A stretch of 64,000 nucleotides of DNA from positions 1-64,000 of the forward strand of contig NZ_JAMXOD010000010.1 in assembly GCF_024721305.1 (NCBI RefSeq), read 5' to 3'. Shown here piece by piece: positions 44,334 to 63,404 of the stretch. The position numbers were made by a program, and so were the translations under genes. The DNA is from Aequitasia blattaphilus (GTDB lineage Bacteria; Bacillota; Clostridia; Lachnospirales; Lachnospiraceae). Positions within the stretch are counted from its first letter, which is position 1. Each line of letters starts with the position of its first letter. The notes beneath the pieces were generated by a model. It saw only the letters and a program-made list of their open reading frames with translations, was not told the DNA's origin and made no database searches.

Positions 44334-44822
44334 ATGACAAGTAAAAGAAAAGACTATTTAAGCTGGGACGAATATTTTATGAGTGTAGCTTTTTTATCCG
44401 GTATGCGTTCCAAGGATCCAAACACCCAAGTAGGGTGTTGCATTGTAGACCAGGAAAACAAGATTTTATCTATGGGATATAACGGTCTCCCTAAAGGATG
44501 CTCTGACGATGAATTTCCTTGGGTGAGAGAAGGTGAAGATCCTCTGGAGACCAAATATGTGTATACGGTGCATAGTGAGCTGAATGCAATTTTAAATTAC
44601 AAAGGAGGCAGTTTGGACGATAGCAAGATATATGTATCTTTGTTCCCTTGTAATGAATGTGCAAAAGCGATTATTCAATCTGGTATCAAGGAAGTGATTT
44701 ATGGTGATAATAAGTATGAAGACTCTACAGCAGTCAAGGCTTCTATGCGAATGTTTGATGCGGCAGGAGTACGCTATCATCCTTATCACTGGACTGGAAG
44801 GGAAATAAAATTCAAGATATAG
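44334..44822 (+). CDS. comEB: Deoxycytidylate (dCMP) deaminase
   Basis: 162 residues. Zinc-dependent cytidine-deaminase fold: HSELNAIL supplies the zinc His and the catalytic Glu, PCNECAKAI supplies the two Cys ligands. It converts dCMP to dUMP for thymidylate synthesis. GNGLPKGCSDDE-type loop near 50 is typical of ComEB-like dCMP deaminases. 15 nt after upp. Convergent with the YolD gene, which ends 7 nt later. Confidence 0.92.
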   Translation: MTSKRKDYLSWDEYFMSVAFLSGMRSKDPNTQVGCCIVDQENKILSMGYNGLPKGCSDDEFPWVREGEDPLETKYVYTVHSELNAILNYKGGSLDDSKIYVSLFPCNECAKAIIQSGIKEVIYGDNKYEDSTAVKASMRMFDAAGVRYHPYHWTGREIKFKI

Positions 44823-46730: not shown

Positions 46731-46778
46731 AGCAAAAGCACTTATATCACATTTTTATGCGTTATAAGTGCTTTTGCT
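46731..46778 (-). terminator. Terminator of the purine cluster left arm
   Basis: Perfect 16-bp arms AGCAAAAGCACTTATA and TATAAGTGCTTTTGCT, overlapping the last base of the permease gene. Confidence 0.85.
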
Positions 46779-48121
46779 TATTCGTTGAGAGCTTCATTAG
46801 GAGCTGTTTTAGGTAAAACTTGATTCAGTATAATTGCAGCAATGGTAGCAAGTACGGTTGGAGATTTCCCAAACACCGTTGTGACCCATGTGGGGAATTC
46901 ACCAAAGCAGCCGACTACTTGCGTAACACCCATCCCCAAAGCAACGGAAAGCCCAACAATAGAGGTGTTCCGATAACTGAGCTCTTCTTGTGTAATTAGT
47001 TTGATACCGGTCATTGCGATGGAAGCGAATACAGAAATTGTTGCCCCTCCCAATACACAAGAAGGAATTGTCGTTAGTGCAGCAGAGAATTTAGGAACAA
47101 GCCCAGCAATCAAAATCAGTCCGCCTGCTAACCCAAAGACGCCTCGATTAATGACCTTCGTAGTTGCAACGATCCCTACATTTTGGCTATAGGTAGCAGT
47201 AGGCAATCCGCCAAAGAACGGGGAGATAATATTACATAGGCCGTATCCGACAACGCCGTTTTGAAGCTCTTTTCCAGTAGGCTGTCGGTCCATTCCTCCG
47301 CTGGTTGTTGCGGAAAAGTCTCCAATCGCTTGGATAGAGTTGATAGCAAATAAGAGCCCTAGTGCGATACAAGAAGAGGGTTCAAATGTGATACCAAAGT
47401 GCATAAATTGGGGAAGTTGAAAGAGACCTGCGGCAGCAATCCCAGAGAAATCAATCATTCCCATACAGAGGGCAATCACATAACCTACACCCATACCGAT
47501 AAGGATAGAGGCAAGTTTTAAAAAACCTTTCCCAAAATGATTCAAAGTGGTAACCACGGCAAGGGTAATTAGACCGATCAGCCAGTTTTGCCACGAGCCA
47601 AAGGGAACTGCTGTATCGGAACCGCCGGCTATATAGCGTACCGCAGTGGGATAAAGTGACAAGCCGATTGTAAATACTACTGTACCAGCAATTAAAGGTG
47701 GAAATAATATTTGTATTTTTTGCATAAAAAGTCCAACAATGACTGCAATAACTCCTCCGACAATCATGGCACCAAAAATGGAGGAAATGCTGCTGCCTTC
47801 TGCAATGGCCTGCATGCTGGGAAGATAAGCAAAGCTGATTCCCATAATCATAGGAAGCCCAGACCCAAGTCGGAAACCATTTTTCTTTCCAATAGGAAAT
47901 AATTGAAGGAAGGTGGTTAAGGCAGACATTGTCATACCAGCCTGTATTAATATGATGCGGTCGCCATCTGATAAACCAGCAACAGAAGCAATGATAATAG
48001 AAGGTGTGACACATCCTACAATCATTGCAATAACATGCTGAAGGGCAAGAGGAAATGCTTCACCAAATTTCGGGGTACCGTTTAACTCAAATACAGATGC
48101 GTATTGTTTTTGTTTGTTCAT
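46778..48121 (-). CDS. NCS2-family purine (xanthine/urate) permease
   Basis: 447 residues with about 12-14 membrane segments. NCS2 blocks: GSGLPMIMGISFAYLPSM, INSIQAIGDFSATT, and FFGGLPTATYSQNVGIVATTKVINR, where the QNVG motif is found in xanthine and urate carriers (uracil carriers usually differ). It brings in the purine by proton symport. It is the last gene of the left arm, 17 nt after arcC, so substrate supply and breakdown are in one transcript. Whether it prefers xanthine or urate cannot be read. Confidence 0.85.
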   Translation of the reverse strand: MNKQKQYASVFELNGTPKFGEAFPLALQHVIAMIVGCVTPSIIIASVAGLSDGDRIILIQAGMTMSALTTFLQLFPIGKKNGFRLGSGLPMIMGISFAYLPSMQAIAEGSSISSIFGAMIVGGVIAVIVGLFMQKIQILFPPLIAGTVVFTIGLSLYPTAVRYIAGGSDTAVPFGSWQNWLIGLITLAVVTTLNHFGKGFLKLASILIGMGVGYVIALCMGMIDFSGIAAAGLFQLPQFMHFGITFEPSSCIALGLLFAINSIQAIGDFSATTSGGMDRQPTGKELQNGVVGYGLCNIISPFFGGLPTATYSQNVGIVATTKVINRGVFGLAGGLILIAGLVPKFSAALTTIPSCVLGGATISVFASIAMTGIKLITQEELSYRNTSIVGLSVALGMGVTQVVGCFGEFPTWVTTVFGKSPTVLATIAAIILNQVLPKTAPNEALNE

Positions 48122-48138
48122 GGTAAAGATCCTCCTCT

Positions 48139-49083
48139 TTATTTTCGGATGTGTGTTCCGGTATCGCCCTTAATCCCCTCACGGGCTTTTTCCAACAAGG
48201 TAATAATCGCTTCACGACCATCTTTTGATTCTACAAATTGAATGGCAGCTTCAACCTTCGGGAGCATGGAGCCAGGGGCAAATTGGTCTTCACCGATATA
48301 TTTTTTTGCCTCCGAGACAGACATATGGTCAATCCATGCCTGGTTTGGTTTTCCGAAATTAACGGCAACCTTTTCAACAGCTGTTAAGATGATCAGGCAA
48401 TCAGCATTTAGCTCTTGCGCCAATAGACAGGCGGCAAAATCTTTGTCAATCACAGCGCTGGCACCTTTTAAATATTTGCCCTTGGAAATAACTGGAATAC
48501 CACCACCGCCACAAGCAATAACGAGTTGTCCATCATCTACTAAAGAACGTATAGCCCGCAATTCTATAATTTCAACTGGTTTTGGAGATGCAACGACCCG
48601 GCGATATCCTCTGCCGGAGTCCTCAATCATATCATAACCGTATTTTTCTGCAGCATTATCAGCCTCTTCCTTAGTCATAAAATGTCCAATAGGTTTGGTA
48701 GGAGTTTTAAATGCGGGAGAGTTGGCATCTACTCTCATCTGGGTAATCATAGTTGTAACAGGGATGTTTTCTATGCCTCTAATTTCCATTTCTTCTCGTA
48801 ATGCATTCTGTAAATCATAGCCAATATAGGCTTGGCTCATGGCAACACATACAGAAAGAGGAGTATTGGGATGAGAGGGATCTTCACGGGTAAGAGCTCC
48901 CATGGCATTGTTAATCATACCTACTTGTGGACCATTTCCGTGTACGATAATCACCTCGCAATTTTCTTCTAAAAGATCAACGATTGCTTTAGCAGTTGTT
49001 TTTACTGCCTGCATTTGCTCTGGAAGGTTGTTTCCAAGAGCGTTACCACCTAAGGCAAGAACGATACGTTTTTTCTTTCCCAT
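48139..49083 (-). CDS. arcC: Carbamate kinase
   Basis: 314 residues with the full fold: LALGGNALG at the start, VHGNGPQVG, GGGGIPVI (near 196-203) and the KDFAACLLA region. It turns carbamoyl phosphate and ADP into ATP, CO2 and NH3. E. coli has the paralog yqeA at the matching place of its purine cluster. Here it probably provides the energy yield of purine breakdown, working with YgeW. Only 3 nt separate it from ridA, and the permease gene starts 17 nt later. Confidence 0.93.
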   Translation of the reverse strand: MGKKKRIVLALGGNALGNNLPEQMQAVKTTAKAIVDLLEENCEVIIVHGNGPQVGMINNAMGALTREDPSHPNTPLSVCVAMSQAYIGYDLQNALREEMEIRGIENIPVTTMITQMRVDANSPAFKTPTKPIGHFMTKEEADNAAEKYGYDMIEDSGRGYRRVVASPKPVEIIELRAIRSLVDDGQLVIACGGGGIPVISKGKYLKGASAVIDKDFAACLLAQELNADCLIILTAVEKVAVNFGKPNQAWIDHMSVSEAKKYIGEDQFAPGSMLPKVEAAIQFVESKDGREAIITLLEKAREGIKGDTGTHIRK

Positions 49084-49086
49084 AAA

Positions 49087-49470
49087 TTAGTCCTCCTTTA
49101 TAAAAGCAATAGCTTCAACTTCGCAGAGGACACCTTTGGGAAGGGTTTTGACTGCGACACAGGAGCGTGCAGGGTTGCCGGTAAAATACTTTCCATAGAT
49201 TTCGTTAAATGAGGCGAAATCATTCATATCTGTTAGAAAGCAGGTGGTCTTAATGACATTTTGCAAGGATATACCTTGACTTTCTAGAACTGCTTTCATG
49301 TTTAATAGAACCTGCTCTGCCTGTTTTTCAATGGAGTCACCTACAATCTCCCCTGTTTCGGGAGAAAGTGGGATTTGTCCGGAGGTGAATAGAAAATTTC
49401 CGCAAATGATTGCCTGAGAATAAGGTCCAATGGCAGCAGGTGCTTTCTGGGTATTTACATATTTCAACAT
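49087..49470 (-). CDS. ridA: RidA-family enamine/imine deaminase
   Basis: 127 residues with the RidA pattern IGPYSQAIICGNFLFTSGQIPL, the conserved Arg in GNPARSCVAVKTLPKG and final CEVEAIA with the catalytic Glu. RidA hydrolyses 2-aminoacrylate to pyruvate and ammonia. It lies between arcC and ygeW. Because YgeX splits diaminopropionate through 2-aminoacrylate, a RidA in the same transcript makes biochemical sense: it removes a toxic intermediate and speeds pyruvate formation. That link is inference. Confidence 0.92.
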   Translation of the reverse strand: MLKYVNTQKAPAAIGPYSQAIICGNFLFTSGQIPLSPETGEIVGDSIEKQAEQVLLNMKAVLESQGISLQNVIKTTCFLTDMNDFASFNEIYGKYFTGNPARSCVAVKTLPKGVLCEVEAIAFIKED

Positions 49471-49491
49471 ATAGTACCTCCTTTTTGAGGG

Positions 49492-50685
49492 TTATTCGAA
49501 AATTCGTGAAATGCCTTTTTCTTCCAGCTTTTTCAAGATTTCAGTTGGATTTTCAAATTTAGCTAAGAAAATCATTGCAGCAATAATGTATGGTTTATAG
49601 CTTGCTTCCTTATAAAGTGGATCACGGTAGCGATCAAATACGGAAGCATCTACTTCGCCTTCTTTGCAGCTTAAGCCAGTAATGTCAGCAGGGAGACAGT
49701 GCATGTAAAGTGCTTTTCCGTCTTTTGTGGTTTTCATCAATTCTTCTGTACAAGTCCAATCTTTATGCTCTGCATTTTGTTTTAAAAGCTCTTTTTCCAG
49801 AGCGTCAATGCCTGCACTATCGCCTTGCGCATATAAATCAGTTCGTTTTTCCATAGCAGCAAAAGGAGCCCAGCTTTTTGGATATACAATATCTGCATCC
49901 TTAAAGGCCTCAGCCATGTCGTTTGTTTTGGTGAAGGAACCACCAGTTTTCTTTGCATTTTCTTTTGCCACTTCTTCTACTTCTTCAAAAATTTCATAAC
50001 CTTCAGGATGAGCCAAGACTACATCCATACCAAAACGAGTCATCAGACCAACGATTCCTTGAGGAACGGAAAGGGGTTTTCCGTAAGAAGGAGAGTAGGC
50101 CCATGTCATAGCCAGTTTTTTGCCTTTTAGATTTTCAACACCACCAAATTCATGAATGATATGAAGCATATCGGCCATTGCTTGTGTGGGGTGGTCAATA
50201 TCGCATTGCAGATTCACTAAAGTGGGTTTTTGTTCTAAGATTCCGTTATTTTTTCCTTCTGTTACAGCGTCTACAACTTCGTGCATGTACTTGTTTCCTT
50301 TTCCAATGTACATATCATCACGGATGCCGATTACATCTGCCATAAAGGAAATCATATTCGCTGTTTCACGAACAGTTTCGCCATGAGCAATTTGAGATTT
50401 TCCTTCGTCTAAATCCTGCACCTCTAACCCAAGAAGGTTACAGGCAGAAGCAAAGGAAAAACGTGTACGGGTAGAGTTATCACGGAAGAGGGAAATTCCA
50501 AGACCGCTTTCAAATACCTTTGTTGAAATATTCTGTTCCCGCATATAGCGAAGAGCATCTGCAACCAAGAAAACGGCTTCAATGGAGTCATCAGACTTTT
50601 CCCATGTGAGAAAGAAATCCTTGTTGTACATTTCTTTAAAGTTTAATGCATTTAATTTGTCAATATAGGTTTGTAAAGTTTTCAT
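49492..50685 (-). CDS. ygeW: YgeW knotted carbamoyltransferase
   Basis: 397 residues, as E. coli YgeW. Carbamoyl-phosphate site FRDNSTRTRFSF (STRTR at 71-75), later QIAHGETVRETANM, CDIDHPTQAMADML and the catalytic MHCLPADITG near 335. The family is a knotted ornithine-carbamoyltransferase relative. The enzyme is thought to move a carbamoyl group from a purine breakdown product to phosphate, feeding ArcC; the exact substrate is still debated. 21 nt before ridA. Confidence 0.93.
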   Translation of the reverse strand: MKTLQTYIDKLNALNFKEMYNKDFFLTWEKSDDSIEAVFLVADALRYMREQNISTKVFESGLGISLFRDNSTRTRFSFASACNLLGLEVQDLDEGKSQIAHGETVRETANMISFMADVIGIRDDMYIGKGNKYMHEVVDAVTEGKNNGILEQKPTLVNLQCDIDHPTQAMADMLHIIHEFGGVENLKGKKLAMTWAYSPSYGKPLSVPQGIVGLMTRFGMDVVLAHPEGYEIFEEVEEVAKENAKKTGGSFTKTNDMAEAFKDADIVYPKSWAPFAAMEKRTDLYAQGDSAGIDALEKELLKQNAEHKDWTCTEELMKTTKDGKALYMHCLPADITGLSCKEGEVDASVFDRYRDPLYKEASYKPYIIAAMIFLAKFENPTEILKKLEEKGISRIFE

Positions 50686-50762
50686 ATAAATTAATCCTCC
50701 TGAATAATATTTGTGTTTGTATTCTTACAGGTTATATCATTATTAAATAAGTAAGATAGATA

Positions 50763-52022
50763 CTATTTGAAATATAAGGTTGGAACGCAGGCATATACAG
50801 CGGCACATTGTACTAAATCTGCTTTCCAGGTTTTTTCGTTTGGAGCATGTGCCTCTTCTTCTTTACCAGGGCCAAGTCCAATACAAGGAATTCCTTCACG
50901 ACCCATAATGGAGACGCCATTTGTTGAGAAGGTCCATTTATCAATCTCAGGATTTCCATAAACGCTGTCAAATGCTTCTGCTACTGCCTGACAAGCGGGG
51001 TGATCTTCCGGAATAACCCATGTGGGGAAGTAGCATTCTGTTTCATATACGAGACCGGTATAAGAGGGACGGTCGTATTTATACATGCTTACTTTGGCAC
51101 CGTATTTTTTTGCGGCAGGAAGCTGACGAATTTCTTCCAGGCAGCTTTCCCATGTTTCACCAGCGGTCATGCGGCGATCCAAAGAAACAGAGCAGGAGTC
51201 GGCAACGGCACAACGACTTGGTGATGAGAAGAAAATCTCAGAGGTTGTAACGGTTCCGCGACCTAAGAAATTGGCTTCTCTCCACTGAGAATTATATTTT
51301 TGGTCGAGCATTTTCACGAGACCTTTTATCTCCGTGTTATCATTGGCGTCATTTTCATTTAATGCCTGTACTTGAAGAAGAATTTCTGCCATCTTATAAA
51401 TGGCATTTTCTCCACGTTCTGGTGCAGAACCGTGGCAGGAAATACCATCTACATCAACGCGGATTTCCATACGTCCACGGTGTCCACGGTAGATTTTATT
51501 GTTTGTGGGTTCGGTAATAACAACAAATTCTGGGCGGACTTTATCTTCGTTGATGATGTATTGCCAGCAGAGACCATCACAGTCTTCCTCCTGAACGGTA
51601 CCGGTAACCATGATTTTGCAATCTTCCGGAATTAATCCGAAGTCCTTCATGATTTTAGCACCATAAACAGAAGACACCAGACCACCACATTGATCGGAGA
51701 CACCGCGGCCTCCTATTTCTGTGTCGTTTTCATATCCTTCATAAGGGTCAAACTTCCAGTTGGCAGGGTTTCCAATGCCAACAGTATCGATGTGGGCATC
51801 GTAGGCAATGATGCGGCTGCCGGTTCCCATATAGCCGATTACGTTTCCTTGTGGATCAATTAGTACTTCATCAAAGTTTAGCTTTTTCATTTCCGCAGCA
51901 ATGGTGTCGATGTGAGCCTTCTCATCACAGCTTTCACCAGGGTTGCGGACAATTGCACGTAGAAATGCAGTCATATCTTTTTCATAACCTTCAGCAGCTT
52001 GTTTTATTTTTTCAAAATTCAT
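50763..52022 (-). CDS. ygeY: YgeY-type M20 metallohydrolase
   Basis: 419 residues from the ATG at 52022 (AAGGAGG upstream). Peptidase M20/ArgE fold: metal ligands in [29 protein letters not shown] (Glu pair), and [13 protein letters not shown] near the end. Known in clusters with ygeW and ygeX, where it probably cleaves an acyl, formyl or carbamoyl group from a diaminopropionate-like compound so that YgeX can act. The precise reaction is not fixed by sequence. 20 nt after ygeX. Confidence 0.92.
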
Positions 52023-52042
52023 AACGAATTCCTCCTTAAATT

Positions 52043-53251
52043 TTATAGTGAATTTACACCATCCCATACAACGGAACGGTAGCGATTTGGATCCGTGTCA
52101 CCTTCGGTTGAGAAGAGCAGTACACTGGAATTTTTATTAAGTTCTAGTTTTTCACGTAAATCTTTATATTTATCATCTGTCATAATTGTATAAAGAAGCC
52201 CCATGGTCACGGCACCTGATTCGCCGGCTGTAACAGGAATATCCCCTTTTATAGGTGCTGCAAGTGCACGCATCCCTTTTGCAGTGACCCAATCTGGGCA
52301 GGCAACGAAGGTATTTACATGGTTGCGAAGGATGTCCCAGGCAATGGTACTAGGTTCTCCACAAGCCAGTCCGTTCATTAGCGTCAGCATATCTCCACCA
52401 ACCATGCGAACATCACCATCGCCGGCAAGAGCACCTTCATAAAGACAAGCAGCTACCAGAGCTTCTACAACGATTACTTTTGGTTCATTTTCAGGATAGC
52501 GGTTTGCGAAATAACCTTGTACAGCACCTGCCAGTGAGCCAACACCGGCTTGAACGAATACATGGGTTGGACGGTCGCATCCATGTTGAGAAAGCTGTTG
52601 ATCTGCTTCATAGGCCATGGTTCCATAGCCCTGCATAATCCAAGTTGGAATTTCTTCATAGCCATCCCATGCAGTATCTTGGATAATGACGCCGTTTTCT
52701 GTATTTTCAGCCGCGGCAGCTGCCTTACGTACACAATCATCGTAGTTTAGATTTTCAATCGTAGCTTCTGCATTTTCCCGCAACACGTGATCCAAACGTG
52801 TTTGGGTGGTGCCAATAGGCATGTAGACTACACATTTTTGCCCCAGTTTATTTGCGGCCCATGCAACGCCTCGGCCGTGATTTCCGTCTGTGGCGGTGAA
52901 AAAAGTACCTTGCCCGAATTCTTCACGAAGTGCATCAGATGTTAGCACATTGTAAGGAAGTTCTGAGATATTCTTTCCAAGTTTTCCGGCTATATATTTG
53001 GCAATCGCGTAAGAACCACCCAGTACTTTAAAGGCATTTAGTCCGAAACGATAAGATTCGTCTTTCACAAAAAGTTGTTTCAACCCTAGGTGTTTTGCCA
53101 TTTGCTTGAGGTTTGCCAAAGGTGTTTCACTGTACTGCGGGAAACTCTCATGGAAGGCTTTTACTTCCTGGGCATGTTCAATTGATAGCAGAGATAAATT
53201 TTTATCATCTGTTTTGGGCAGTGTATTTACGGTCCATTTGATATTATTCAC
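52043..53251 (-). CDS. ygeX: 2,3-Diaminopropionate ammonia-lyase
   Basis: 402 residues from GTG at 53251, 8 nt after AAGGAGG; a longer ATG frame to 53317 has no ribosome site and exceeds the ~398 residues of E. coli YgeX. PLP enzyme of fold type II: Lys75 in [12 protein letters not shown], Asp/Gly loop [11 protein letters not shown], and [11 protein letters not shown] phosphate-binding loop. It converts diaminopropionate to pyruvate and two ammonia. It is the first gene of the left arm, divergent from ssnA. Confidence 0.93.
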
Positions 53252-53542
53252 CTGTAAATCCTCCTTATATTTTTGTAGTGTATAGAATTCTGGCCAATCA
53301 ATTCTTAAGTTCATCATAGCACAGGAGATTTATTTTGCAATAGAAAATCTAAAAAAAATTTAGATGATATGAAAAAAAATAAGAAAAATAGGTCGAAACA
53401 CTTGATTTTTGATATACATAAGGTTAATATGTGTATATCAATAGTGAATATTCATAAAAACATCGGCAAAACGTCGAAGAAAATGTGCAAAATATTCAAA
53501 TGAAGTCAAGTAAAGATTACAAGGAAAGGAAGGTAAAGCAAC
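53252..53542. promoter_or_regulatory. Divergent control region of the purine cluster
   Basis: 291 bp between ygeX and ssnA. It holds an inverted repeat TGATATACA (53410-53418) / TGTATATCA (53432-53440) with 13-bp spacing, over a plus-strand promoter TTGATT-16-TAATAT (53403-53430). A minus-strand TTGATA (53436-53441) could serve the left arm. A second inverted repeat ATCTAAA / TTTAGAT is at 53347-53365. One regulator could thus switch both arms. No sigma-54 -24/-12 site was found, unlike E. coli where YgeV is a sigma-54 activator. Confidence 0.6.
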
Positions 53543-54877
53543 ATGTTAGTAATTGGGAATGGCAGAATGATTACCAGAGATTTAGAGAATCCATTCGTAG
53601 AGGATGGAGCCGTTGCTGTTGAAGGCAATACAATTTTAAAAACGGGAGTGACAAAAGAGATAAAAGAGTTGTATCCGGAAGCAGAATTTATTGATGCAAA
53701 AGGTGGAGTAATTATGCCGGCATTTATTAATACTCACGAGCATATCTATAGCTCCTTTGCCAGAGGATTGTCCATTAATGGATATAATCCAAAAGGATTT
53801 TTGGATATATTAGATGGGATGTGGTGGACATTAGACCGACATCTTACATTAGAGCAAATTAAATTGAGTGCCATGGCAACATATGTTGATTCAATTAAGA
53901 ATGGGGTAACGACAGTTTTTGATCATCATGCAAGTTTCGGTGCAATTACCGATTCCTTGTTTAAAATTGAAGAAGCGGCTAAAGCGGCTGGAATTCGGTC
54001 CTGCCTATGCTATGAGGTGTCAGATCGGGATGGAAAAGAGAAGGCAAAAGAAGGAATTATGGAGAATGCTGCATTTATCCGACATGCACGAAAGGATGAT
54101 CGTGACATGATTGCGGGAATGATGGGAATGCATGCATCTTTTACAATTTCAGATGAGACCATGGAATTGTGCGCAGAGCACAAACCCTCAGAAGTAGGTT
54201 ATCATATTCATGTAGCGGAAGGAATTGAAGATTTACACCAATGTCTTCATGTACATGGAAAAAGGATTATTGATCGATTGATGGATTGTAATGTATTAGG
54301 TGAAAAGACGATTGCTGCACACTGCATTTATGTGAACAAGCACGAAATTGAGCTGCTGAAGAACACCAATACTATGGTGGTGCATAATCCAGAATCAAAT
54401 ATGGGAAATGCTTGTGGATGCCCGCCAACCATGGAAATTGTAAAAGCAGGAGTGCTGACAGGTTTAGGAACAGATGGATACACTCATGATATGCTGGAAA
54501 GCTACAAGGTGGCAAATATACTCCACAAGCATCACTTGTGTGATGCTAATGCAGCGTGGGGAGAAGTACCACAAATGCTATTTGAGGGAAATGCAAAGAT
54601 TGCGAACCGTTATTTCAAAAAAACCTTGGGAATACTGAAAGAAGGGGCAGCAGCCGACATTATTGTAACGGACTATAATCCATTGACACCAATGACAAAA
54701 GACAATGTGAACGGTCATATTCTGTTTGGTATGACGGGACGCAGTGTGGTTACAACGATTGGGAATGGACAGGTATTGATGAAGGATCGTGAATTAATGC
54801 AAATAGATGAGGAAAAGGTGCTGGCAGATTGTCGCCAGGCAGCAGCAGAATTAGCCACATCTATCAATAAAAGATAG
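53543..54877 (+). CDS. ssnA: SsnA aminohydrolase
   Basis: 444 residues. Amidohydrolase barrel with the metal pair His65 and His67 (NTHEHIYSSF), VGYHIHVAEG, AAHCIYVNKHE and GLGTDGYTHDM, all as in cytosine/guanine deaminase relatives. The family is called putative selenium metabolism protein and belongs to purine clusters, where it is expected to deaminate or open a purine-derived ring. First gene of the right arm; AGGAAAGG ribosome site; 20 nt before ygfK. Confidence 0.93.
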   Translation: MLVIGNGRMITRDLENPFVEDGAVAVEGNTILKTGVTKEIKELYPEAEFIDAKGGVIMPAFINTHEHIYSSFARGLSINGYNPKGFLDILDGMWWTLDRHLTLEQIKLSAMATYVDSIKNGVTTVFDHHASFGAITDSLFKIEEAAKAAGIRSCLCYEVSDRDGKEKAKEGIMENAAFIRHARKDDRDMIAGMMGMHASFTISDETMELCAEHKPSEVGYHIHVAEGIEDLHQCLHVHGKRIIDRLMDCNVLGEKTIAAHCIYVNKHEIELLKNTNTMVVHNPESNMGNACGCPPTMEIVKAGVLTGLGTDGYTHDMLESYKVANILHKHHLCDANAAWGEVPQMLFEGNAKIANRYFKKTLGILKEGAAADIIVTDYNPLTPMTKDNVNGHILFGMTGRSVVTTIGNGQVLMKDRELMQIDEEKVLADCRQAAAELATSINKR

Positions 54878-54897
54878 AGGGAAGAGGAGGATGAAAC

Positions 54898-57894
54898 ATG
54901 AGTGATAGAATGACGCCAATGCCGATTTCACAGTTGGTTGAATGGGCAGTAGAAGAAAAGAAAAAATATGGTACTGTATTCGGTGTTTATCGACCATATA
55001 AGGCAGAAGGAAGCTACAACCGAACAATTTTTGGGAGGAATTTAGAGACACCAATTGGGCCAGCAGCAGGGCCTCATACTCAACTGGCTCAGAATATCAT
55101 AGCTGCATATTATGCAGGCTGCCGTTTCTTTGAGTTAAAGACGGTACAGATTATGGATGGAGATGAGTTGTCGGCCTGTGTAAGTAAGCCATGTATCAAT
55201 GCAGATGACGAGTGCTACAACGTGGAGTGGTCAACAGAGCTTTACGTACCTCAAGCGATGGAGGAATATATTAAGGCATGGTTTGTATTAAGTATAATAG
55301 CAAAGGAATATGAGTTGGGGGCTTCTGATGGATTCCAGTTTAATATGAGTGTTGGATATGACTTGGCAGGGATTCAGTCTGAGAAGGTAAATACTTTTAT
55401 TGATAGTATGATAGAAGCCAAAGACACAAAAATTTTCCAAGAATGCAAAAGATATTTAAAAGAGAATATCAATTTATTTACCAGTATTACGGAAGAAGAC
55501 ATTGAGGGGATTTCTTCCCGAATATGTAATTCTGTGACACTTTCTACTTTGCACGGTTGTCCGCCTCAGGAAATAGAGAAAATTGCAAATCATCTGATTG
55601 ATGAAAAGGGATTACATACGTTTATCAAGTGCAATCCTACACTTTTAGGTTATGAATACGCAAGAAAGACTATGGATGAAATGGGGTACGGGTATGTTGC
55701 TTTTGGAGAATTTCATTTCTTGGACGATCTTCAATATAAGGATGCTATACCCATGCTTCACCGATTAATGGAAAAAAGTAAGGAAAAAGGTGTTGAATTT
55801 GGCGTGAAAATAACCAATACTTTTCCAGTAGATATTAAGCAAAATGAGCTTCCGGGAGACGAAATGTATATGTCTGGAAAGTCTTTATATCCATTGTCAA
55901 TGTCTGTTGCAGCAAGACTAACAAAGGACTTTGATGGAAAGCTTCGTATTTCGTATTCCGGAGGTGCTGAAGCTCACAATATTGAAGGAATCATAGATGC
56001 TGGAATATGGCCGGTTACTGTGGCAACGACTCTGCTCAAACCAGGTGGCTATCAGCGCGGGCTGCAATTAGCGGAAAAGGTACAAGGTATAAACTTAACA
56101 TTTGATAAGGTTTCGGTAGAAAAAACGGAAAAACTTGTTGAGGAAGCGAAAAAGGATCCGCATCATGTGAAAGCAGTAAAACCATTACCGATAAGAAAAG
56201 TAAAGGAACAAGTTCCACTTATTGACTGCTTTATGGCACCTTGCCGTGAAGGCTGCCCGATTAACCAGGATATTACCAGATATATTGAGCTTACAAGGCA
56301 AGGGCAGTATGAAGAAGCATTGAAGGTGATTATGGAAAAGAACCCACTTCCCTTTACCACTGGAACAATTTGCCCTCATAAGTGTATGAGTAAATGTACC
56401 CGTAATTTCTATGAGGAACCGGTACAGATACGTGGGGTGAAATTAATTGCAGCGGAAAAGGGTTACGAAGCTGTCTTAAAGAATCTGCCGATACCGGAAT
56501 ATTCTGCCGGAAAGAAGGCTGCAATCGTAGGTGGTGGACCGGCTGGACTTGCAGCAGCTTATTTTTTGGCGAAAGGCGGAGTGAAGGTAACAATTTATGA
56601 GAAACGTGGCAGTCTTGGAGGTGTAGTGGGGCATGTTATACCAGAATTCAGAATTGCTCATGCTTCGTTGGAAAAGGATATTGCCTTGATTATAGCCTTA
56701 GGAGTAGAAGTAAAAGTAAATACGGAGATTAAAAATATTCAGGAATTAAAGGATGCTGGATATGACACTGTAATTTTGGCAATTGGCTCCGGTACAGTTG
56801 GAAAACTTGAGCTTGAAGGGGGAGAAACCCGCAATGCGCTTCGGTTTCTGGAACAATTTAAAAAGCAATCGTCTGAGCTGGAAGTAGGCAAATCGGTTGT
56901 GGTAGTTGGCGGCGGAAATACAGCAATGGACACTGCCCGTGCAGCAAAAAGAATCAAGGGTGTTGAAAAGGTATCTGTGGTATACCGACGAACAAGACGG
57001 TATATGCCGGCAGATGAAGAAGAATTAGTGATGGCATTGAAAGATGGCGTAGAATTTCATGAATTGTTAATACCCAAAAAGCGAGAAGGTGGAAATCTTT
57101 TCTGTACTGTGATGGAGCTTAGCGGATTTGATGCATACGGCAGAAGAGATGTAAAGGCAACTGATAAAGAGGTTATTGTGCCAGCAGATACAGTCATTGC
57201 GGCTGTGGGAGAACAGATATCCAGTGAATTCCTTGAATCAAACGGAATAAAGTTGGATGCAAAGAAGCGTGCCTTAGTGAATGAAGAGACTCTTGAAAGC
57301 AGTGTTGGTGGAGTTTATGTGATTGGAGATGGACTTTTAGGTCCTTCTACAGTAGTATCAGGAATTCGTGATGCCAGAAAGGCGACAGATGCCATTTTAA
57401 AGGTAAGAGACACAGGAGAGTCAACGGAATCGTTAGAGCTGAATCAATATTATGAAAAAAGAGGAATTTTGGAGCAACACACAAGAGAAGACGAAGTAGA
57501 TAATCGTTGTTTGGGATGTGCAAGTGTCTGTGAAAACTGTGCAGAAGTCTGTCCAAACCGGGCCAATATTGCAATTCAGGTGCCCGGGCTTCTGAAACAT
57601 CAGATTGTTCATGTGGATTCTATGTGTAATGAGTGTGGAAACTGTAGAAGCTTCTGCCCTTATGACAGTGCTCCTTATTTGGACAAGTTTACTCTTTTTG
57701 CTAATGCAAAAGACATGGAAGATAGCACAAACCAGGGATTCACAGTCTTAGATAAGCATGATATTATTTGTCAGGTTAGATATTTGGGAAATACGGTAAT
57801 ATGGAAGAAAGGTGAAGGAAAGACCTCTTTACCAAAAGAGCTTTGTATGGTGATGGAAACGGTTTGCCGGGATTATCCATATTTATGGGAATAA
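54898..57894 (+). CDS. ygfK: YgfK flavin/iron-sulfur oxidoreductase
   Basis: 998 residues (E. coli YgfK ~1030). Residues 1 to about 425 resemble a dihydropyrimidine/dihydroorotate dehydrogenase barrel (GPAAGPHTQLAQNI, STLHGCPPQEIEKI). Then a Cys-rich dicluster domain (CREGCPINQD, TICPHKCMSKC, about 445-520), an FAD site VGGGPAGLAAAYF (about 543), an NAD(P)H site VVGGGNTAMDTARA (about 668), and two [4Fe-4S] sets near 869-884 and 910-921. This is the plan of NADPH-driven glutamate-synthase-type flavoproteins plus a substrate barrel. Once named selenate reductase; now linked with reduction of purine intermediates. Confidence 0.92.
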   Translation: MSDRMTPMPISQLVEWAVEEKKKYGTVFGVYRPYKAEGSYNRTIFGRNLETPIGPAAGPHTQLAQNIIAAYYAGCRFFELKTVQIMDGDELSACVSKPCINADDECYNVEWSTELYVPQAMEEYIKAWFVLSIIAKEYELGASDGFQFNMSVGYDLAGIQSEKVNTFIDSMIEAKDTKIFQECKRYLKENINLFTSITEEDIEGISSRICNSVTLSTLHGCPPQEIEKIANHLIDEKGLHTFIKCNPTLLGYEYARKTMDEMGYGYVAFGEFHFLDDLQYKDAIPMLHRLMEKSKEKGVEFGVKITNTFPVDIKQNELPGDEMYMSGKSLYPLSMSVAARLTKDFDGKLRISYSGGAEAHNIEGIIDAGIWPVTVATTLLKPGGYQRGLQLAEKVQGINLTFDKVSVEKTEKLVEEAKKDPHHVKAVKPLPIRKVKEQVPLIDCFMAPCREGCPINQDITRYIELTRQGQYEEALKVIMEKNPLPFTTGTICPHKCMSKCTRNFYEEPVQIRGVKLIAAEKGYEAVLKNLPIPEYSAGKKAAIVGGGPAGLAAAYFLAKGGVKVTIYEKRGSLGGVVGHVIPEFRIAHASLEKDIALIIALGVEVKVNTEIKNIQELKDAGYDTVILAIGSGTVGKLELEGGETRNALRFLEQFKKQSSELEVGKSVVVVGGGNTAMDTARAAKRIKGVEKVSVVYRRTRRYMPADEEELVMALKDGVEFHELLIPKKREGGNLFCTVMELSGFDAYGRRDVKATDKEVIVPADTVIAAVGEQISSEFLESNGIKLDAKKRALVNEETLESSVGGVYVIGDGLLGPSTVVSGIRDARKATDAILKVRDTGESTESLELNQYYEKRGILEQHTREDEVDNRCLGCASVCENCAEVCPNRANIAIQVPGLLKHQIVHVDSMCNECGNCRSFCPYDSAPYLDKFTLFANAKDMEDSTNQGFTVLDKHDIICQVRYLGNTVIWKKGEGKTSLPKELCMVMETVCRDYPYLWE

Positions 57895-57907
57895 GGAGGT
57901 GAGAAAT

Positions 57908-60460
57908 GTGTATAGTTTACTTGTAAACGGACAGATAATTGAAGCTGTTGAAGATAAAAAGCTGATGGTATTTCTCAGAGAGGATTGTAACCTTAAATCT
58001 GTAAAAGACGGTTGCAGTGAAGGTGCCTGCGGAACGTGTACGATATTAGTAGATGGAAAGCCAATAAAGGCTTGTGTACAGAAGATATCCCGGTTTGAAG
58101 GGAAGTCTATTATCACGGTAGAAGGTTTATCAGAGAGAGAAAAGGAAATCTATACATATGCTTTTGGAGAAGCAGGAGCTGTGCAATGCGGCTTCTGCAT
58201 TCCAGGCATGATTATGTGTGCGAAGGGGTTGCTGGATCAAAATCCTAATCCCGATAGACATGAGATTGCAAAGGCGATTAAGAATAATATATGTCGCTGT
58301 ACTGGTTATAAGAAAATTATTGACGGAATCGAGCTGGCTGGAAAGCTTTTAAAAGAAGAGAAAATACCAGAAGCAGAAGGTGTGCTGGGAGTTGGCAAGG
58401 CGGCACATCGGATTGACGTAAGAGAAAAGGTTCTGGGGTATGGTGAATATGTAGACGACATGGTCTTAGAAGGTATGATTTATGGAAGTGCAGTTCGTTC
58501 AGCTTATCCTCGGGCTAAGGTGCTGTCTATCGATATAAGCCGTGCACAGAAGTTGCCGGGAATACGAGGAGTGGTTACAGCAGAGGATATACCGGGAACG
58601 AACCAGATTGGTCACGTTAAAAAGGATTGGGATACCTTGATTCCAGTCGGTGGTATAACACGTTATCTGGGGGATGCAGTTTGCTTGGTGGCAGGTGATA
58701 CGCCGGAGATTGTAGAAGAAGCGAAGAAATTAATCGAAGTAAAATATGAAGAGCTGCCAGCAGTTTTTAGTCCTGAAGAGGCTATGAAACCGGATGCACC
58801 AAAAGTTCATTCAGGCGGAAATATTTTGGCTCATGAACATATTAAAAGAGGAGATGCAGACCGAGCAATTCGGGAGTCGGCTCATGTTGTGACAAAAAGT
58901 TATGAAACCCCTTTCACGGAGCATGCATTTTTAGAACCGGAATGTGCAATTGCAATAGTGAATCGAGAAGATGGAGAAGCCATTATCTATTCCACAGATC
59001 AAAGTGCTTATTCTACGCAGCATGAATGTGCAGACATGTTAGGTTATCCCCACGAAAAAGTGCATGTGATGAACAAACTGGTTGGTGGTGGATTCGGTGG
59101 GAAAGAAGATATGTCCGTTCAGCATCATGGGTTGTTATTGTCATGGTATACCGGAAAACCGGTGAAGGTGAAGTTAAGTCGTAGTGAAAGTATTTTAATA
59201 CACCCCAAACGCCATGCGGCAAAGATGGAATTTACTACGGCTTGTGATGCCCAGGGCAAATTAACAGGAATGAAAGCAACTTTGATTACTGACACGGGGG
59301 CCTATGCCTCTTTGGGGGGACCAGTACTTCAGCGAGCCTGTACTCATGCAGCGGGACCTTATAATTATCAAAATATTGATATGGAAGGAACTGCTGTTTA
59401 TACAAATAATCCACCAGCCGGAGCATTTCGTGGATTTGGGGTAACTCAAACGTGTTTTGCCACAGAATGCAATCTGAATTTACTTGCAGAGATGGTAGGG
59501 ATTTCGCCGTGGGAAATTCGTTACCGAAATGCAATTCGCCCAGGCCAGGAATTACCCAACGGACAATTAGCAGCGCCAGGAACAGCACTTGTGGAAACTT
59601 TGGAGGCAGTAAAGCCGATATTTGAAAACCATGACCGAGCGGGAATTGCTTGTGCAATGAAGAATGCAGGTGTAGGTGTCGGCTTGCCTGATTATGGAAG
59701 ATGCCGGATTACGGTGGAGGATGGTAAGATGCATATCCGAACGGGAGCGACTTGTATCGGACAAGGTTTGGGAACTGTTTTGGTACAGATGTGCCATGAG
59801 GCGACAGGTATTGATGCAGAGAGGATTGTGTATCATGCATCGGAGACGAATCGTGCACCGGATTCAGGGGTAACATCTGGTTCAAGACAGACTCTTGTAA
59901 CAGGGGAAGCAACAAGGAGAGCTTGTGTAGAATTGGTAAAAGATTTAAAGAATCAAGCATTAGAAGCACTAAATGGGAAAGAATATTTTGGGGAATATTT
60001 AGCAGCTACGGATCCTATGGGAAGTCCGAAAAAGAATCCAGTTTCTCATGTGGCGTATGGATATGCGACGCAAGTAGTTTTGCTGGATGAGACAGGACGA
60101 GTGGAGAGTGTTGCTGCAGCTCATGATGTGGGAAGAGCCATCAATCCATTATCTGTAGAGGGACAGATTGAGGGTGGTGTGGTTATGTCATTGGGATATG
60201 CGTTAACGGAAGATTATCCTTTGAAGGAAGGGAAACCAACAGCTAAGTTTGGTACCTTAGGATTATTCCGTGCAGACAAGACACCAGACGTAAAAAGTAT
60301 TATAATAGAGAAAAACAAAGATTCTCTGGCCTTTGGGGCAATTGGAATTGGTGAGATTACATCTATTCCAACTGCACCGGCAGTGCAGGGGGCTTACTAC
60401 AAATATGATGGAGTATTCCGCACGAAGCTTCCTTTGGAAGGGACTGCATATAGAAAGTAA
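57908..60460 (+). CDS. xdh: Selenium-type molybdenum hydroxylase (xanthine dehydrogenase), single chain
   Basis: 850 residues from GTG at 57908, 8 nt after AGGAGG; the GTG at 57899 touches the ribosome site. N-terminal [2Fe-2S] domain (Cys36, 41, 44, 56), a second [2Fe-2S] domain (CGFCIPGM, CRCTGY), then the molybdopterin domain (about 165-845: GGGFGGKED, RGFGVTQ, GSRQT, GAIGIGE with the catalytic Glu). There is no FAD domain and no FAD subunit in the cluster. The association with yqeB and yqeC marks the selenium-dependent branch, which carries labile Se on Mo, not selenocysteine. It likely oxidises xanthine/hypoxanthine to urate or the reverse. Confidence 0.9.
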   Translation: MYSLLVNGQIIEAVEDKKLMVFLREDCNLKSVKDGCSEGACGTCTILVDGKPIKACVQKISRFEGKSIITVEGLSEREKEIYTYAFGEAGAVQCGFCIPGMIMCAKGLLDQNPNPDRHEIAKAIKNNICRCTGYKKIIDGIELAGKLLKEEKIPEAEGVLGVGKAAHRIDVREKVLGYGEYVDDMVLEGMIYGSAVRSAYPRAKVLSIDISRAQKLPGIRGVVTAEDIPGTNQIGHVKKDWDTLIPVGGITRYLGDAVCLVAGDTPEIVEEAKKLIEVKYEELPAVFSPEEAMKPDAPKVHSGGNILAHEHIKRGDADRAIRESAHVVTKSYETPFTEHAFLEPECAIAIVNREDGEAIIYSTDQSAYSTQHECADMLGYPHEKVHVMNKLVGGGFGGKEDMSVQHHGLLLSWYTGKPVKVKLSRSESILIHPKRHAAKMEFTTACDAQGKLTGMKATLITDTGAYASLGGPVLQRACTHAAGPYNYQNIDMEGTAVYTNNPPAGAFRGFGVTQTCFATECNLNLLAEMVGISPWEIRYRNAIRPGQELPNGQLAAPGTALVETLEAVKPIFENHDRAGIACAMKNAGVGVGLPDYGRCRITVEDGKMHIRTGATCIGQGLGTVLVQMCHEATGIDAERIVYHASETNRAPDSGVTSGSRQTLVTGEATRRACVELVKDLKNQALEALNGKEYFGEYLAATDPMGSPKKNPVSHVAYGYATQVVLLDETGRVESVAAAHDVGRAINPLSVEGQIEGGVVMSLGYALTEDYPLKEGKPTAKFGTLGLFRADKTPDVKSIIIEKNKDSLAFGAIGIGEITSIPTAPAVQGAYYKYDGVFRTKLPLEGTAYRK

Positions 60461-60470
60461 GGATGATTGT

Positions 60471-61856
60471 ATGAAAAGGTTATTTCAAGGTGGCTGGGTT
60501 GTGGACGGAAATGGAAGAACCCGGAAGGACATTTTAGTTGAGGGAGAAAAAATTATAAAAGTAGAGTTGGGAATTCGAGATGAGGAGGCAGAAGTTATCA
60601 ATGTAAGGGGAAAACTTTTGTTTCCGGGCTTCATAGATCCACATACTCATTTTGATTTGGAAGTGTCCCAGACGATAACGGTGGATGATTTTGCTTCTGG
60701 AACTCGAGCCGCAATTGTAGGGGGAACTACAACGATTTTAGATTTTGCAACTCAGAACCGGGGAGAGACGTTAAAAGCAGCTTTAGATAACTGGAATCGG
60801 AAGGCATCGGGGAATTGTTCTTGTGATTATGGTTACCATATGGCAATTTCAGAGTGGAATGAGTCAATTTCTGAGGAGATTGCAGATATGGTTGAATGGG
60901 GGATTACATCTTTTAAACTCTATATGATTTATGATGCGATGTACCTGGACGATGGAGCGATTTATCAAGCTTTATCCAGGTTAAAAGAGGTTGGCGGACT
61001 TGCAGGAGTACATTGCGAAAACCGGGATTTGATTGCTGCCTTAGTGGAGGAGGAAAAGGGAAAGGGAAATCTGTATCCACAAATACATCCGAGAACCAGA
61101 CCAGTTCAGGCTGAGGCAGAAGCAATCAACAGGCTGCTGGAAATTGCCTCATTGGCAGATGCACCGGTTATGGTGGTGCACCTAAGTACTGCACGGGGAT
61201 ATCAGGTTATCCAGGAGGCTAGAAAACGAGGGCAATGTGTATACGTGGAGACTTGTCCGCAGTATCTTCTTCTGGATGACGAAAAATATAATTTGCAAGG
61301 GTTTGAAAGTGCAAAATATGTAATCTCTCCACCACTTCGAAGCAGGAAGGACAGGGATGCCCTATGGACAGCGTTGAAGAAGCAGGAAATCCAAACTGTG
61401 GCAACGGATCATTGCAGTTTTACAATGGAGCAAAAAAGAATGGGAAAGAAGGATTTTACGAAGATACCTTGTGGTATGCCGGGAGTTGAAACAAGACCTT
61501 CTCTTCTTTATACTTATGGAGTGAAATCAGGAAAGATAACAGAAGCACAGATGTGTAGGTATCTGTCTGAGGATGTGGCAAAGCTTTACGGTATGTATCC
61601 TCAAAAGGGGGCTATCCAACCGGGAAGTGACGGTGATATTGTGGTGTGGAATCCAGAGGGGAAGCAGGTTCTAAACTGGAGAAACCAATATTCAAGCTGT
61701 GACTACAACCCATACGAAGGAATGGAAGTATGGGGAAGGGCAGAACAGGTATATTTACGAGGTGAATTAGTGGCCAGGGATGGAGAGGTGATTTGTGTTG
61801 GGAAAGGAAAATATATACATCGATCCAGATCAGGGGGAAAAGAACAGTCTGTATAA
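60471..61856 (+). CDS. hydA: Dihydropyrimidinase/hydantoinase-type amidohydrolase
   Basis: 461 residues from the ATG at 60471 (AAGGATG site); 10 nt after xdh. Cyclic amidohydrolase with His58/His60 (DPHTHFD), the carbamylated Lys149 (GITSFKLYMIYD), VHCENRD, VVHLSTARG and TDHCSF for the metal centre. It opens cyclic ureides or imides. In E. coli hyuA has the same place in the purine cluster. Substrate could be a ring-reduced urate product; sequence does not decide. The next gene starts inside its 3' end. Confidence 0.92.
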   Translation: MKRLFQGGWVVDGNGRTRKDILVEGEKIIKVELGIRDEEAEVINVRGKLLFPGFIDPHTHFDLEVSQTITVDDFASGTRAAIVGGTTTILDFATQNRGETLKAALDNWNRKASGNCSCDYGYHMAISEWNESISEEIADMVEWGITSFKLYMIYDAMYLDDGAIYQALSRLKEVGGLAGVHCENRDLIAALVEEEKGKGNLYPQIHPRTRPVQAEAEAINRLLEIASLADAPVMVVHLSTARGYQVIQEARKRGQCVYVETCPQYLLLDDEKYNLQGFESAKYVISPPLRSRKDRDALWTALKKQEIQTVATDHCSFTMEQKRMGKKDFTKIPCGMPGVETRPSLLYTYGVKSGKITEAQMCRYLSEDVAKLYGMYPQKGAIQPGSDGDIVVWNPEGKQVLNWRNQYSSCDYNPYEGMEVWGRAEQVYLRGELVARDGEVICVGKGKYIHRSRSGGKEQSV

Positions 61857-62568
61857 GGCTCTGGATATTAGAGCGGAGGAGTTGACGTCGATTACTGGAG
61901 CGGGAGGAAAGACTACCTGCTTATATCGCTTGGGAAAAGAGCTAAAAGATAACCGGGTGCTGCTGACGACAACGACAAAGATGAAATATCCGGAAGGGAA
62001 TGAAGTAGACAACATTAAAGTAGCACCTCAGATGGAGGAAATAGTATTGGGAACAGGGAGAACTTTTGTCTGTGGAAAACTTTCCGGGAAAGGGAAGTGT
62101 ACAAGTATTGCCCCTGAAATCTTAAGCCGTTGGTGGCGGAAATATGATTATACAATTGTAGAAGCAGATGGTTCTTGTGGGTTTCCACTTAAGGGCTACA
62201 AAATAGATGAACCTTGCATCCCTGCAGAAGCTGCGTGTAACATAGGTATTGTAACACTGAAGGGATTGGGATTCCCAGCAGATGAACGAACAGTATTTCG
62301 GCTGGAAAGGTTCTGTGAAATGGTGGGAATTCGAAAAGGTGAAATTATTAAAGAAATACATCTTGCAAGGTGGATTGTACATCCATGTGGAATGTGGAAA
62401 GGGGGATTGGGAAGACGGATTCTCTTTTTTAATCAAGTTGAAAGCAGGGATGAAATGGGACGAGTAAAAGATGTGATGGGATATTTCCCGATGGAGTTTA
62501 TGAGTGAAACAAATAGAATTGTTGCTGGCTCTATGAGAGATGAGAAATATGAAGTACTCCGCAAATGA
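61795..62568 (+). CDS. yqeC: YqeC, selenium-dependent hydroxylase accessory protein
   Basis: 257 residues from GTG 61795 (GGAGAGG upstream); TTG 61798 is the alternative. P-loop GAGGKTT (35-41) and VEADGSCGFPLKGY are the family motifs. YqeC proteins occur only with selenium-dependent molybdenum hydroxylases and are thought to help insert or handle the selenium-containing Mo centre. The start overlaps the hydA end by 62 bp, an unusually long overlap; 4-nt region before yqeB shows tight packing. Confidence 0.9.
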   Translation: MLGKENIYIDPDQGEKNSLYKALDIRAEELTSITGAGGKTTCLYRLGKELKDNRVLLTTTTKMKYPEGNEVDNIKVAPQMEEIVLGTGRTFVCGKLSGKGKCTSIAPEILSRWWRKYDYTIVEADGSCGFPLKGYKIDEPCIPAEAACNIGIVTLKGLGFPADERTVFRLERFCEMVGIRKGEIIKEIHLARWIVHPCGMWKGGLGRRILFFNQVESRDEMGRVKDVMGYFPMEFMSETNRIVAGSMRDEKYEVLRK

Positions 62569-62585
62569 GAAGGAGGGTTCAGAAC

Positions 62586-63404
62586 ATGAGGATTGAGAAA
62601 AAGATTATATGTGTTCGAGGGGCAGGGGATTTGGCAACTGGTGTAATACAGAAATTGGTTCGAAGTGGATATCAGGTGTATGCACTGGAGATAGAAAGAC
62701 CAACGGCAATCCGCAGGCAGGTAGCTCTTTCTACAGCCATAACAGAAGGACACTTTAAGGTGGAAGACATTGTTGCAGAGAGAGTGGAGTGTACCATGAG
62801 AGAGCTGGAGCGCTGCTGGTCTTGTGGACATGTTCCAATTGTTGTGGATAGTGAGGCAAGAAGTGTTTATGAAATTGAACCGATTGCAGTAATTGATGGG
62901 ATTTTGGCAAAGAAAAACCTAGGAACAGGACACTCTATGGCACCTATTACGATTGGATTAGGACCTGGGTTTTCAGCTCCTGAAGATGTGGATGCAGTGA
63001 TTGAAACAGTGCGGGGACATTCCCTGGGGCGCCTTATTTTAGCAGGTAAGGCAAAGGAAGATACAGGAGTACCAGGTGAAATAGGAGGACGAAGTCAACA
63101 AAGGGTGCTTCATGCGCCGAGGGAAGGGACAGTAAAGCATCTGTCTGGGATTGGGGACTGGATTTTAGAGGGAGAACCGATATTTAAGGTGGATAATACG
63201 ATTGTAAAAGCACCTTTTTCGGGAACTCTTAGAGGTCTTATTGGGGAAAATATGTATGTAAAGAAGGGTATGAAATCTGCCGACATTGATCCCCGCAGAC
63301 TTACTCCAGAAGAAGTGTATGGGATATCGGATAAGGCAAGATGCATTGGTGGAGCTGTGCTGGAAGCATGCTTATACCTAGCAAAAGAGAAATCCACCTC
63401 ATAG
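62586..63404 (+). CDS. yqeB: YqeB, selenium-dependent molybdenum hydroxylase maturation protein
   Basis: 272 residues from the ATG at 62586 (AAGGAGGG 8 nt before). Rossmann-like start VRGAGDLATGVIQKLVRSGYQVYALE, then ERPTAIRRQVALSTAI, and a C-terminal half with a biotinyl/lipoyl-like fold (APREGTVKHLSGIGDWILEGEPI, APFSGTLRGLI) that suggests a carrier role. With yqeC it is the marker pair of the selenium-dependent hydroxylases. Last gene of the right arm, followed by a bidirectional terminator. Confidence 0.92.
   Translation: MRIEKKIICVRGAGDLATGVIQKLVRSGYQVYALEIERPTAIRRQVALSTAITEGHFKVEDIVAERVECTMRELERCWSCGHVPIVVDSEARSVYEIEPIAVIDGILAKKNLGTGHSMAPITIGLGPGFSAPEDVDAVIETVRGHSLGRLILAGKAKEDTGVPGEIGGRSQQRVLHAPREGTVKHLSGIGDWILEGEPIFKVDNTIVKAPFSGTLRGLIGENMYVKKGMKSADIDPRRLTPEEVYGISDKARCIGGAVLEACLYLAKEKSTS

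Follow-up and report, generated by a model that had tools for sequence, protein, structure and literature searches.

A reductive uric-acid degradation cluster of the Lachnospiraceae type in Aequitasia blattaphilus, with a predicted PAS/HTH regulator and a candidate operator dyad

Background

What would the twelve adjacent purine-type genes of an Aequitasia blattaphilus contig degrade, and what would switch them on? The genes lie at 46778-63404 of a 64,000-nucleotide stretch (NCBI RefSeq assembly GCF_024721305.1, contig NZ_JAMXOD010000010.1, here contig C2, positions 1 to 64,000), which as a whole is called the window. Work on E. coli, C. difficile and C. sporogenes published in 2025 established a reductive pathway of uric-acid degradation (PMC12507026, PMC12990295). 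It runs from urate through yanthine, reduced yanthine, ureidomethylhydantoin, diureidopropionate and diaminopropionate to pyruvate (Li et al. 2025, PMC12507026). Urate becomes yanthine through XdhD or XdhAC, ring reduction is due to YgfK and ring opening to SsnA and HyuA; the ureido groups are then taken off by YgeW and YgeY, and YgeX yields pyruvate (PMC12507026, PMC12990295). Most of this gene set had already been listed in E. coli and E. faecalis and linked to selenium (Haft and Self 2008).

The gene set of the window is that of this known pathway, and at family level its kind is not new. It is very likely that the cluster is a reductive uric-acid degradation system of the Lachnospiraceae type, which would carry out the steps given below under the control of a protein with PAS and helix-turn-helix (HTH) domains and of a DNA dyad. 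The regulator and the dyad, both bioinformatic predictions, are the part which was not found described; among listings of the open-licence literature no description of a PAS-type regulator of uricolysis was found.

Gene content of the cluster

Families were assigned by NCBIfam models with curated cut-offs, and all twelve proteins cleared the cut-off of their model. The twelve open reading frames stand in two divergent arms as the original prediction had them, with the starts of hyuA and ygeX corrected.

The rightward arm (+ strand) begins with ssnA (53543..54877), encoding the amidohydrolase of ring opening (NF005540, 683 bits, cut-off 444), and adjoining it is ygfK (54898..57894), encoding the Fe-S flavoprotein of reductive dearomatisation (TIGR03315, 1336 bits, cut-off 835), which is 41-44% identical to E. 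coli YgfK. These are followed by the gene of an XdhAC-type selenium-dependent molybdenum hydroxylase (57899..60460; TIGR03311, 1385 bits, cut-off 830), matched over the full chain and carrying its 2Fe-2S and Mo domains on a single chain, and by hyuA (60471..61856), a hydantoinase/dihydropyrimidinase gene (TIGR02033, 567 bits, cut-off 393) whose ATG start at 60471 was read from the sequence and replaces 60333. The arm ends with yqeC (61795..62568, start uncertain), for a selenium cofactor accessory protein (TIGR03172, 148 bits, cut-off 73), and yqeB (62565..63404), for maturation of the selenium-dependent Mo cofactor (TIGR03309, 329 bits, cut-off 220).

The leftward arm (- strand) begins with ygeX (52043..53251), the gene of 2,3-diaminopropionate ammonia-lyase (TIGR03528, 616 bits, cut-off 532). 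Its start is most likely the GTG at 53251, with AAGGAGG ahead of it, instead of 53317; the TIGR03528 match begins at residue 25 of the longer frame. It is followed by ygeY (50763..52067), an M20 hydrolase gene (TIGR03526, 651 bits, cut-off 322), ygeW (49492..50685), a carbamoyltransferase gene (TIGR03316, 793 bits, cut-off 500), a Rid family deaminase gene (49087..49470; TIGR00004, 172 bits, cut-off 106), arcC (48139..49083) for a carbamate kinase forming ATP from carbamoyl phosphate (TIGR00746, 366 bits, cut-off 358) and the gene of a pbuX-like xanthine/urate-type permease of the NCS2 family (46778..48121; TIGR00801, 315 bits, cut-off 292). The permease clears the broad NCS2 models and scores 382 bits against the xanthine-permease model TIGR03173 (pbuX), below its cut-off of 414.

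The window holds what is looked for in a reductive uric-acid cluster: a molybdenum hydroxylase of the XdhD/XdhAC kind (TIGR03311; activity predicted), ygfK next to ssnA, and HyuA, YgeW, YgeY and YgeX all above their cut-offs. This family content supports the predicted anaerobic purine/urate cluster with selenium-hydroxylase markers, permease, ring-opening enzymes, ammonia-lyase, Rid protein and ATP-yielding carbamate kinase, a description which was right in outline.

The selenium-dependent molybdenum hydroxylase (SDMH) system is also represented, as YqeB (TIGR03309), YqeC and selD are all in the genome above their cut-offs. Contig 7 carries a full set of selenium supply genes (selD, yedF, selA, selB and tRNA-Sec), together with a selenium-associated LysR regulator. 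The selD gene (G000:C7:34201-35121) holds one in-frame TGA, so SelD is probably a selenoprotein itself. Loss of selD or yqeB in C. difficile leads to poor growth on xanthine and urate; for a yqeC mutant no obvious phenotype was seen (PMC11448449).

The older names of YgfK and SsnA would give another reading, a selenate reductase or selenium detoxification cluster, and the NCBIfam name of YgfK is still that of a putative selenate reductase subunit. Against it, Haft and Self (2008) favoured the view that the accessory genes serve to mature molybdenum hydroxylases, YgfK with SsnA is active on yanthine in vitro (PMC12507026), and the cluster includes ring-opening and diaminopropionate enzymes. We regard the selenate reading as extremely improbable.

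Proposed pathway

The published chemistry comes from homologues elsewhere, so the enzyme roles are assigned here by analogy. The NCS2 permease would import urate or xanthine, and XdhAC would reduce urate to yanthine at a Mo centre which probably bears selenium, helped by SelD, YqeB, YqeC and MocA. YgfK would then reduce the ring at the expense of NAD(P)H, SsnA and HyuA would open it to give diureidopropionate, and YgeW and YgeY would take off the two ureido groups, with ArcC making ATP from the carbamoyl phosphate of YgeW. Diaminopropionate would be split by YgeX into pyruvate and ammonia, and the Rid protein would presumably clear the 2-aminoacrylate intermediate which YgeX makes. A second xanthine dehydrogenase, XdhABC, is encoded beside the twelve-gene unit; it may oxidise xanthine to urate and supply reducing power. 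The order of substrates, which the original prediction had called unsolved, is largely solved (PMC12507026); a commentary leaves open which of the two ureido groups is cleaved first, what donates electrons to XdhAC, and the stereochemistry and kinetics (PMC12990295).

XdhAC is just 26% identical to E. coli XdhD, Glu606 of XdhD aligns, in this low-identity alignment, to a stretch missing from XdhAC, and the twelve-gene unit has no FAD subunit; all three weigh against the proposed pathway. Given the low identity and the missing stretch, the assignment of the urate-to-yanthine step here rests on the published XdhAC of C. sporogenes, which reduces urate to yanthine with an artificial donor (PMC12990295). 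The E. coli subtype, XdhD with its FAD subunit YgfM encoded next to ssnA, is not what the window has. A FAD_binding_5 protein was not found within the unit, and the genome has only two at E <= 1e-8, namely xdhB (C2:67464) and one on contig C44. Among the 51 genomes with XdhAC, 49 have such a protein at this threshold, and G282 and G288 (93 and 94% complete) gave no match, so XdhAC may be able to do without a partner of the XdhB type.

A rival explanation is that XdhAC is oxidative (xanthine to urate), with a different Mo enzyme feeding urate into the YgfK/SsnA route. The family name of TIGR03311, selenium-dependent xanthine dehydrogenase, speaks for it, as do the low identity to XdhD and four matches in the genome to the XDH a/b-hammerhead domain. 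However, a conventional XdhABC adjoins the unit and shares an operator-like site with it, XdhAC accompanies YgfK in 47 of the 48 genomes that have YgfK, and the C. sporogenes enzyme works on urate in the direction proposed (PMC12990295). An oxidative XdhAC is unlikely, and reduction of urate by XdhAC is kept as the first step.

At the last step, two proteins resembling pyridoxal-phosphate enzymes (about 410 and 495 aa; Pfam PALP, the longer one below cut-off) recur in the uricolytic loci of five relatives (L090, L099, L104, L109 and L110), and the shorter one occurs in L075 as well. In the fetched stretches of L109 and L110 no YgeX was seen, so it is possible that the pair replaces the last step there.

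Regulator and candidate operator

The unit does not stop at 63404, where the original prediction ended it; it passes this position and the window end and reaches contig position 69,398. After a gene for a YczE-like membrane protein (63434..64054, - strand, below the cut-off of its model, the window ending at 64000), contig C2 carries the regulator gene (64145-64837, - strand). Its product has PAS_6 (PF08348, 118 bits) and a C-terminal HTH_22 (PF13309, 70 bits), both above cut-off, an architecture like that of YheO. The relative of this regulator in Faecalicatena orotica is modelled as a PAS domain with C-terminal helices (pLDDT 87.5, pTM 0.72).

Between the arms, two divergent promoters were read from the sequence. 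The candidate leftward promoter of the ygeX arm (53313..53340, - strand) has -35 TTGCAA, a 16 bp spacer and -10 TATGAT; the candidate rightward promoter of the ssnA arm (53402..53430, + strand) has -35 TTGATT, 17 bp and -10 TAATAT. A candidate operator, CAATA-N6-CTAAA-N5-TTTAG, lies at 53338..53363, and its 15 bp dyad CTAAA-N5-TTTAG (53349-53363) is 6 bp from the TATTG of the promoter -35 region. An arrangement similar to that of the ygeX-arm promoter precedes the regulator gene, and relatives show one too. A second operator candidate, with one mismatch, is found at contig position 64858-64883 between the regulator gene and xdhA, and the two intergenic regions (ygeX|ssnA and regulator|xdhA), which share the whole pattern, are alike in local alignment (score 165, where 200 shuffles gave no more than 65).

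The dyad was also recovered from relatives. Among 110 ssnA upstream regions of relatives, counted with the window left aside, CTAAA-N5-TTTAG ranks first (22 occurrences, 0.1 expected). A matrix built from the sites of 19 relatives, the window again excluded, gives the two sites of this genome scores of 20.1 and 17.6, while none of 550 simulated regions scored above 14.0. Searched through its own genome in a 28-base form, the motif occurs with fewer than two mismatches only at ygeX|ssnA and regulator|xdhA, and at one further place with two mismatches; a reversed control pattern occurs six times at up to two mismatches. In 2.39 Mb of loci there were 35 matches with at most one mismatch, 34 before ssnA and one before xdhA. 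In 299 whole genomes of the same family the motif matched exactly 14 times and the reversed pattern 6 times (places of the 6 not listed), and 13 of the 14 are at ygeX/ssnA promoters of such clusters: 11 at known ssnA promoters, one in the regulator-ssnA gap of a further cluster of G114 and one before ygeX (G296), with one elsewhere (G057). This further G114 cluster (L244, G114:C197) lies beside xdhABC, in addition to a YgfK on contig C207, and its ygfK was matched in two frames near the contig end.

Several observations weigh against an operator of this kind. Nearly all of the 2.39 Mb of loci were chosen around these genes, some in both sets coming from the same organism, and an exact match is present in just 11 of the 48 genomes with YgfK. 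In G001, the one other genome of the same genus with YgfK above cut-off and with the cluster, no match at up to one mismatch is found in the two stretches holding the promoters; its best sites are weak (7.0 and 10.9, below the simulated maximum), yet they are located in ygeX|ssnA and regulator|hyuA. G296 has the motif about 340 bp ahead of ygeX, and the regulator gene was not found in the 19 kb fetched. A second dyad is absent from the ssnA side of the window. The regulator was found anywhere in the stretch in 29 of 40 same-family loci and 42 of 80 loci from named genomes, and by a stricter rule, directly divergent from ssnA, in just 57 of 116.

Some of these points, namely G296, the missing second dyad and the degraded sites of G001, together with an operator role that is predicted from sequence, would suit the explanation that the dyad is an A+T-rich promoter element or an RNA hairpin, or that it serves a different regulator. 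Yet the placing of 13 of the 14 exact matches at these promoters speaks for a specific site, as does the distance of 6 bp from the -35 TATTG, often in both directions: in several relatives a pair of oppositely oriented dyads is found, and each member of the pair is separated by 6 bp from the TATTG (or TGTTG) that marks the -35 region of one of the divergent promoters. Moreover, where the regulator gene has moved, as in this genome, a copy of the dyad sits between it and xdhA. A non-operator dyad is accordingly considered the less probable explanation, at a real but minor chance.

The position of the dyad upstream of the -35 suggests that the protein binding it acts as an activator. In our proposal the PAS/HTH regulator would sense a purine or a pathway intermediate and activate both arms and xdhABC through CTAAA-N5-TTTAG, the ligand and the link between regulator and operator being predicted. 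More broadly, and with fair though clearly lower confidence than for the pathway, we propose that Lachnospiraceae and related gut Firmicutes use the PAS_6/HTH_22 protein as the dedicated switch for breaking down uric acid. It would sense urate, xanthine or a pathway product, activate both arms, and here also xdhABC, from the dyad 6 bp upstream of the -35 TATTG, and replace the activators of the sigma-54 type that E. coli and Clostridium have. In loci of the Oscillospiraceae type the Rfam ssnA RNA of the ssnA leader would add to this control or stand in for it.

Other control layers

The Clostridium-type regulon has been assigned to the sigma-54 activator DioR (PMC6615313). No -24/-12 site turned up here in a scan, a weak negative, since the E. 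coli block, scanned with up to one mismatch allowed, gave none as well.

The Rfam ssnA RNA (RF03031) was found in the ssnA leader of six uricolytic loci of the Oscillospiraceae and Christensenella types, from Flavonifractor, Subdoligranulum, Intestinimonas, Christensenella and one further bacterium (L171 8228-8276, L174 8455-8503, L181 8495-8542, L183 8579-8626, L205 5924-5971 and L218 8504-8551), most of which were picked after their leader sequences had been seen. It is absent from the window and from all six Lachnospiraceae-type loci searched. In a rough pattern count over the 110 upstream regions, which misses L205 and L218, the RF03031 core occurs in 21, the dyad in 23 and both in none; L218 carries both the RNA and a dyad with one mismatch. 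We know of no ligand for this RNA, a literature search on it found nothing of use, and compounds of the uric-acid pathway are an obvious candidate class.

Distribution and layout in relatives

The same-family survey covered 299 genomes (298 genera). YgfK is above cut-off in 48 of them, XdhAC in 50 (51 at E <= 1e-150) and YqeB in 86 (87 at E <= 1e-20). By the wider E-value sets, XdhAC is present in 47/48 genomes with YgfK against 4/251 without it, and YqeB in 46/48 against 41/251, an association far beyond chance. Among named genomes at least 578 stretches encode a YgfK relative, and the best 80 were kept; the closest relatives among the matches listed are from Faecalicatena orotica and Mediterraneibacter (64-66%).

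Forty same-family loci were fetched from the 48 genomes. Thirty hold ygeX, ygeW, ssnA and ygfK together, 27 of them in two divergent arms; the two-arm layout is ordinary in the family. All four genes are held by 35 of the 80 named loci, in divergent arms in 24; contig ends truncate many of the named loci, and a few of these loci come from genomes already in the same-family set. Among the two-arm loci, 25 of the 27 from the same family and 18 of the 24 named ones have the regulator gene between the arms. F. orotica, Mediterraneibacter, [Clostridium] clostridioforme, Dorea and other Lachnospiraceae have this form, the first two with the dyad as here, whereas in this genome the regulator gene has moved and sits with yczE beside xdhABC. 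A third position is seen in G001 (L230 1895-2703, G001:C17), where the gene is divergent from hyuA with a weak dyad copy between them.

Compared with E. coli K-12, whose genes the original prediction wrongly called scattered, the set is likewise contiguous, there in one block of about 32 kb (NC_000913.3:3000345-3032815; ygeW-ygeX-ygeY-hyuA-yqeA and ygfK-ssnA-ygfM-xdhD). Both have all downstream enzymes, YqeB, YqeC, MocA, a carbamate-kinase relative and XdhABC. The E. coli block differs in gene order, in XdhD with the FAD protein YgfM and in its sigma-54 regulator YgeV, in place of which the present cluster has XdhAC without FAD subunit and the PAS_6/HTH_22 regulator. Uricolytic clusters of C. 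difficile and other Clostridium share SsnA, HyuA, YgeY and YgeX, but in C. difficile UacX and UacY replace YgfK and YgeW (PMC12507026). Like this genome, C. difficile has yqeB and selD, on which its growth with xanthine and urate depends (PMC11448449). The selD/SDMH locus of Enterococcus faecalis has a nearly identical gene set within EF_2563-EF_2582, including the hydroxylase EF_2570 (Haft and Self 2008); selD is inside that locus and on another contig here.

Neighbouring genes and ancestry

Beyond the regulator, contig C2 continues with xdhA (65100-67436), xdhB (67452-68339), xdhC (68332-68808) and mocA (68805-69398, - strand), whose product, a MocA-type cytidylyltransferase, scores 166 bits (E 8.9e-49) against the MocA/YgfJ model TIGR03310, below the cut-off of 186. 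On the other side of the cluster, upp and a ComEB-like deaminase gene lie at 43689-44822 of the window, which may be chance; in C. difficile, upp and comEB2 stand on either side of yqeB (PMC11448449).

A XerA/XerD-like tyrosine recombinase gene lies just past mocA (69634-70506), and no flanking repeats were found. A mobile island is not supported, as the cluster is not set apart from its right flank by G+C and the two ends examined share no exact repeat of 14 bases.

The copy in G001 (G001:C17; L041, L134, L230) was compared by quick trees, made without bootstraps and with some rows dropped by hand. Tree tests reject pairing the window copy (53543-60460) with it for XdhAC (p ~1e-44), YgfK (2.5e-5) and SsnA (0.012), whereas YqeB (63%) and the regulator (73%) are, by identity only, closest to G001. 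The contrast points to a mixed ancestry, to transfer or to paralogues that are hidden.

Significance

The cluster itself is one more carrier of a widely distributed gene set. Gut-bacterial removal of host urate depends on when these genes are switched on, and their regulation is poorly understood across diverse gut bacteria (PMC12507026). The candidate regulator and its 15-bp dyad would offer a testable handle on this induction, and a DNA tag which may mark part of the regulon in genomes.

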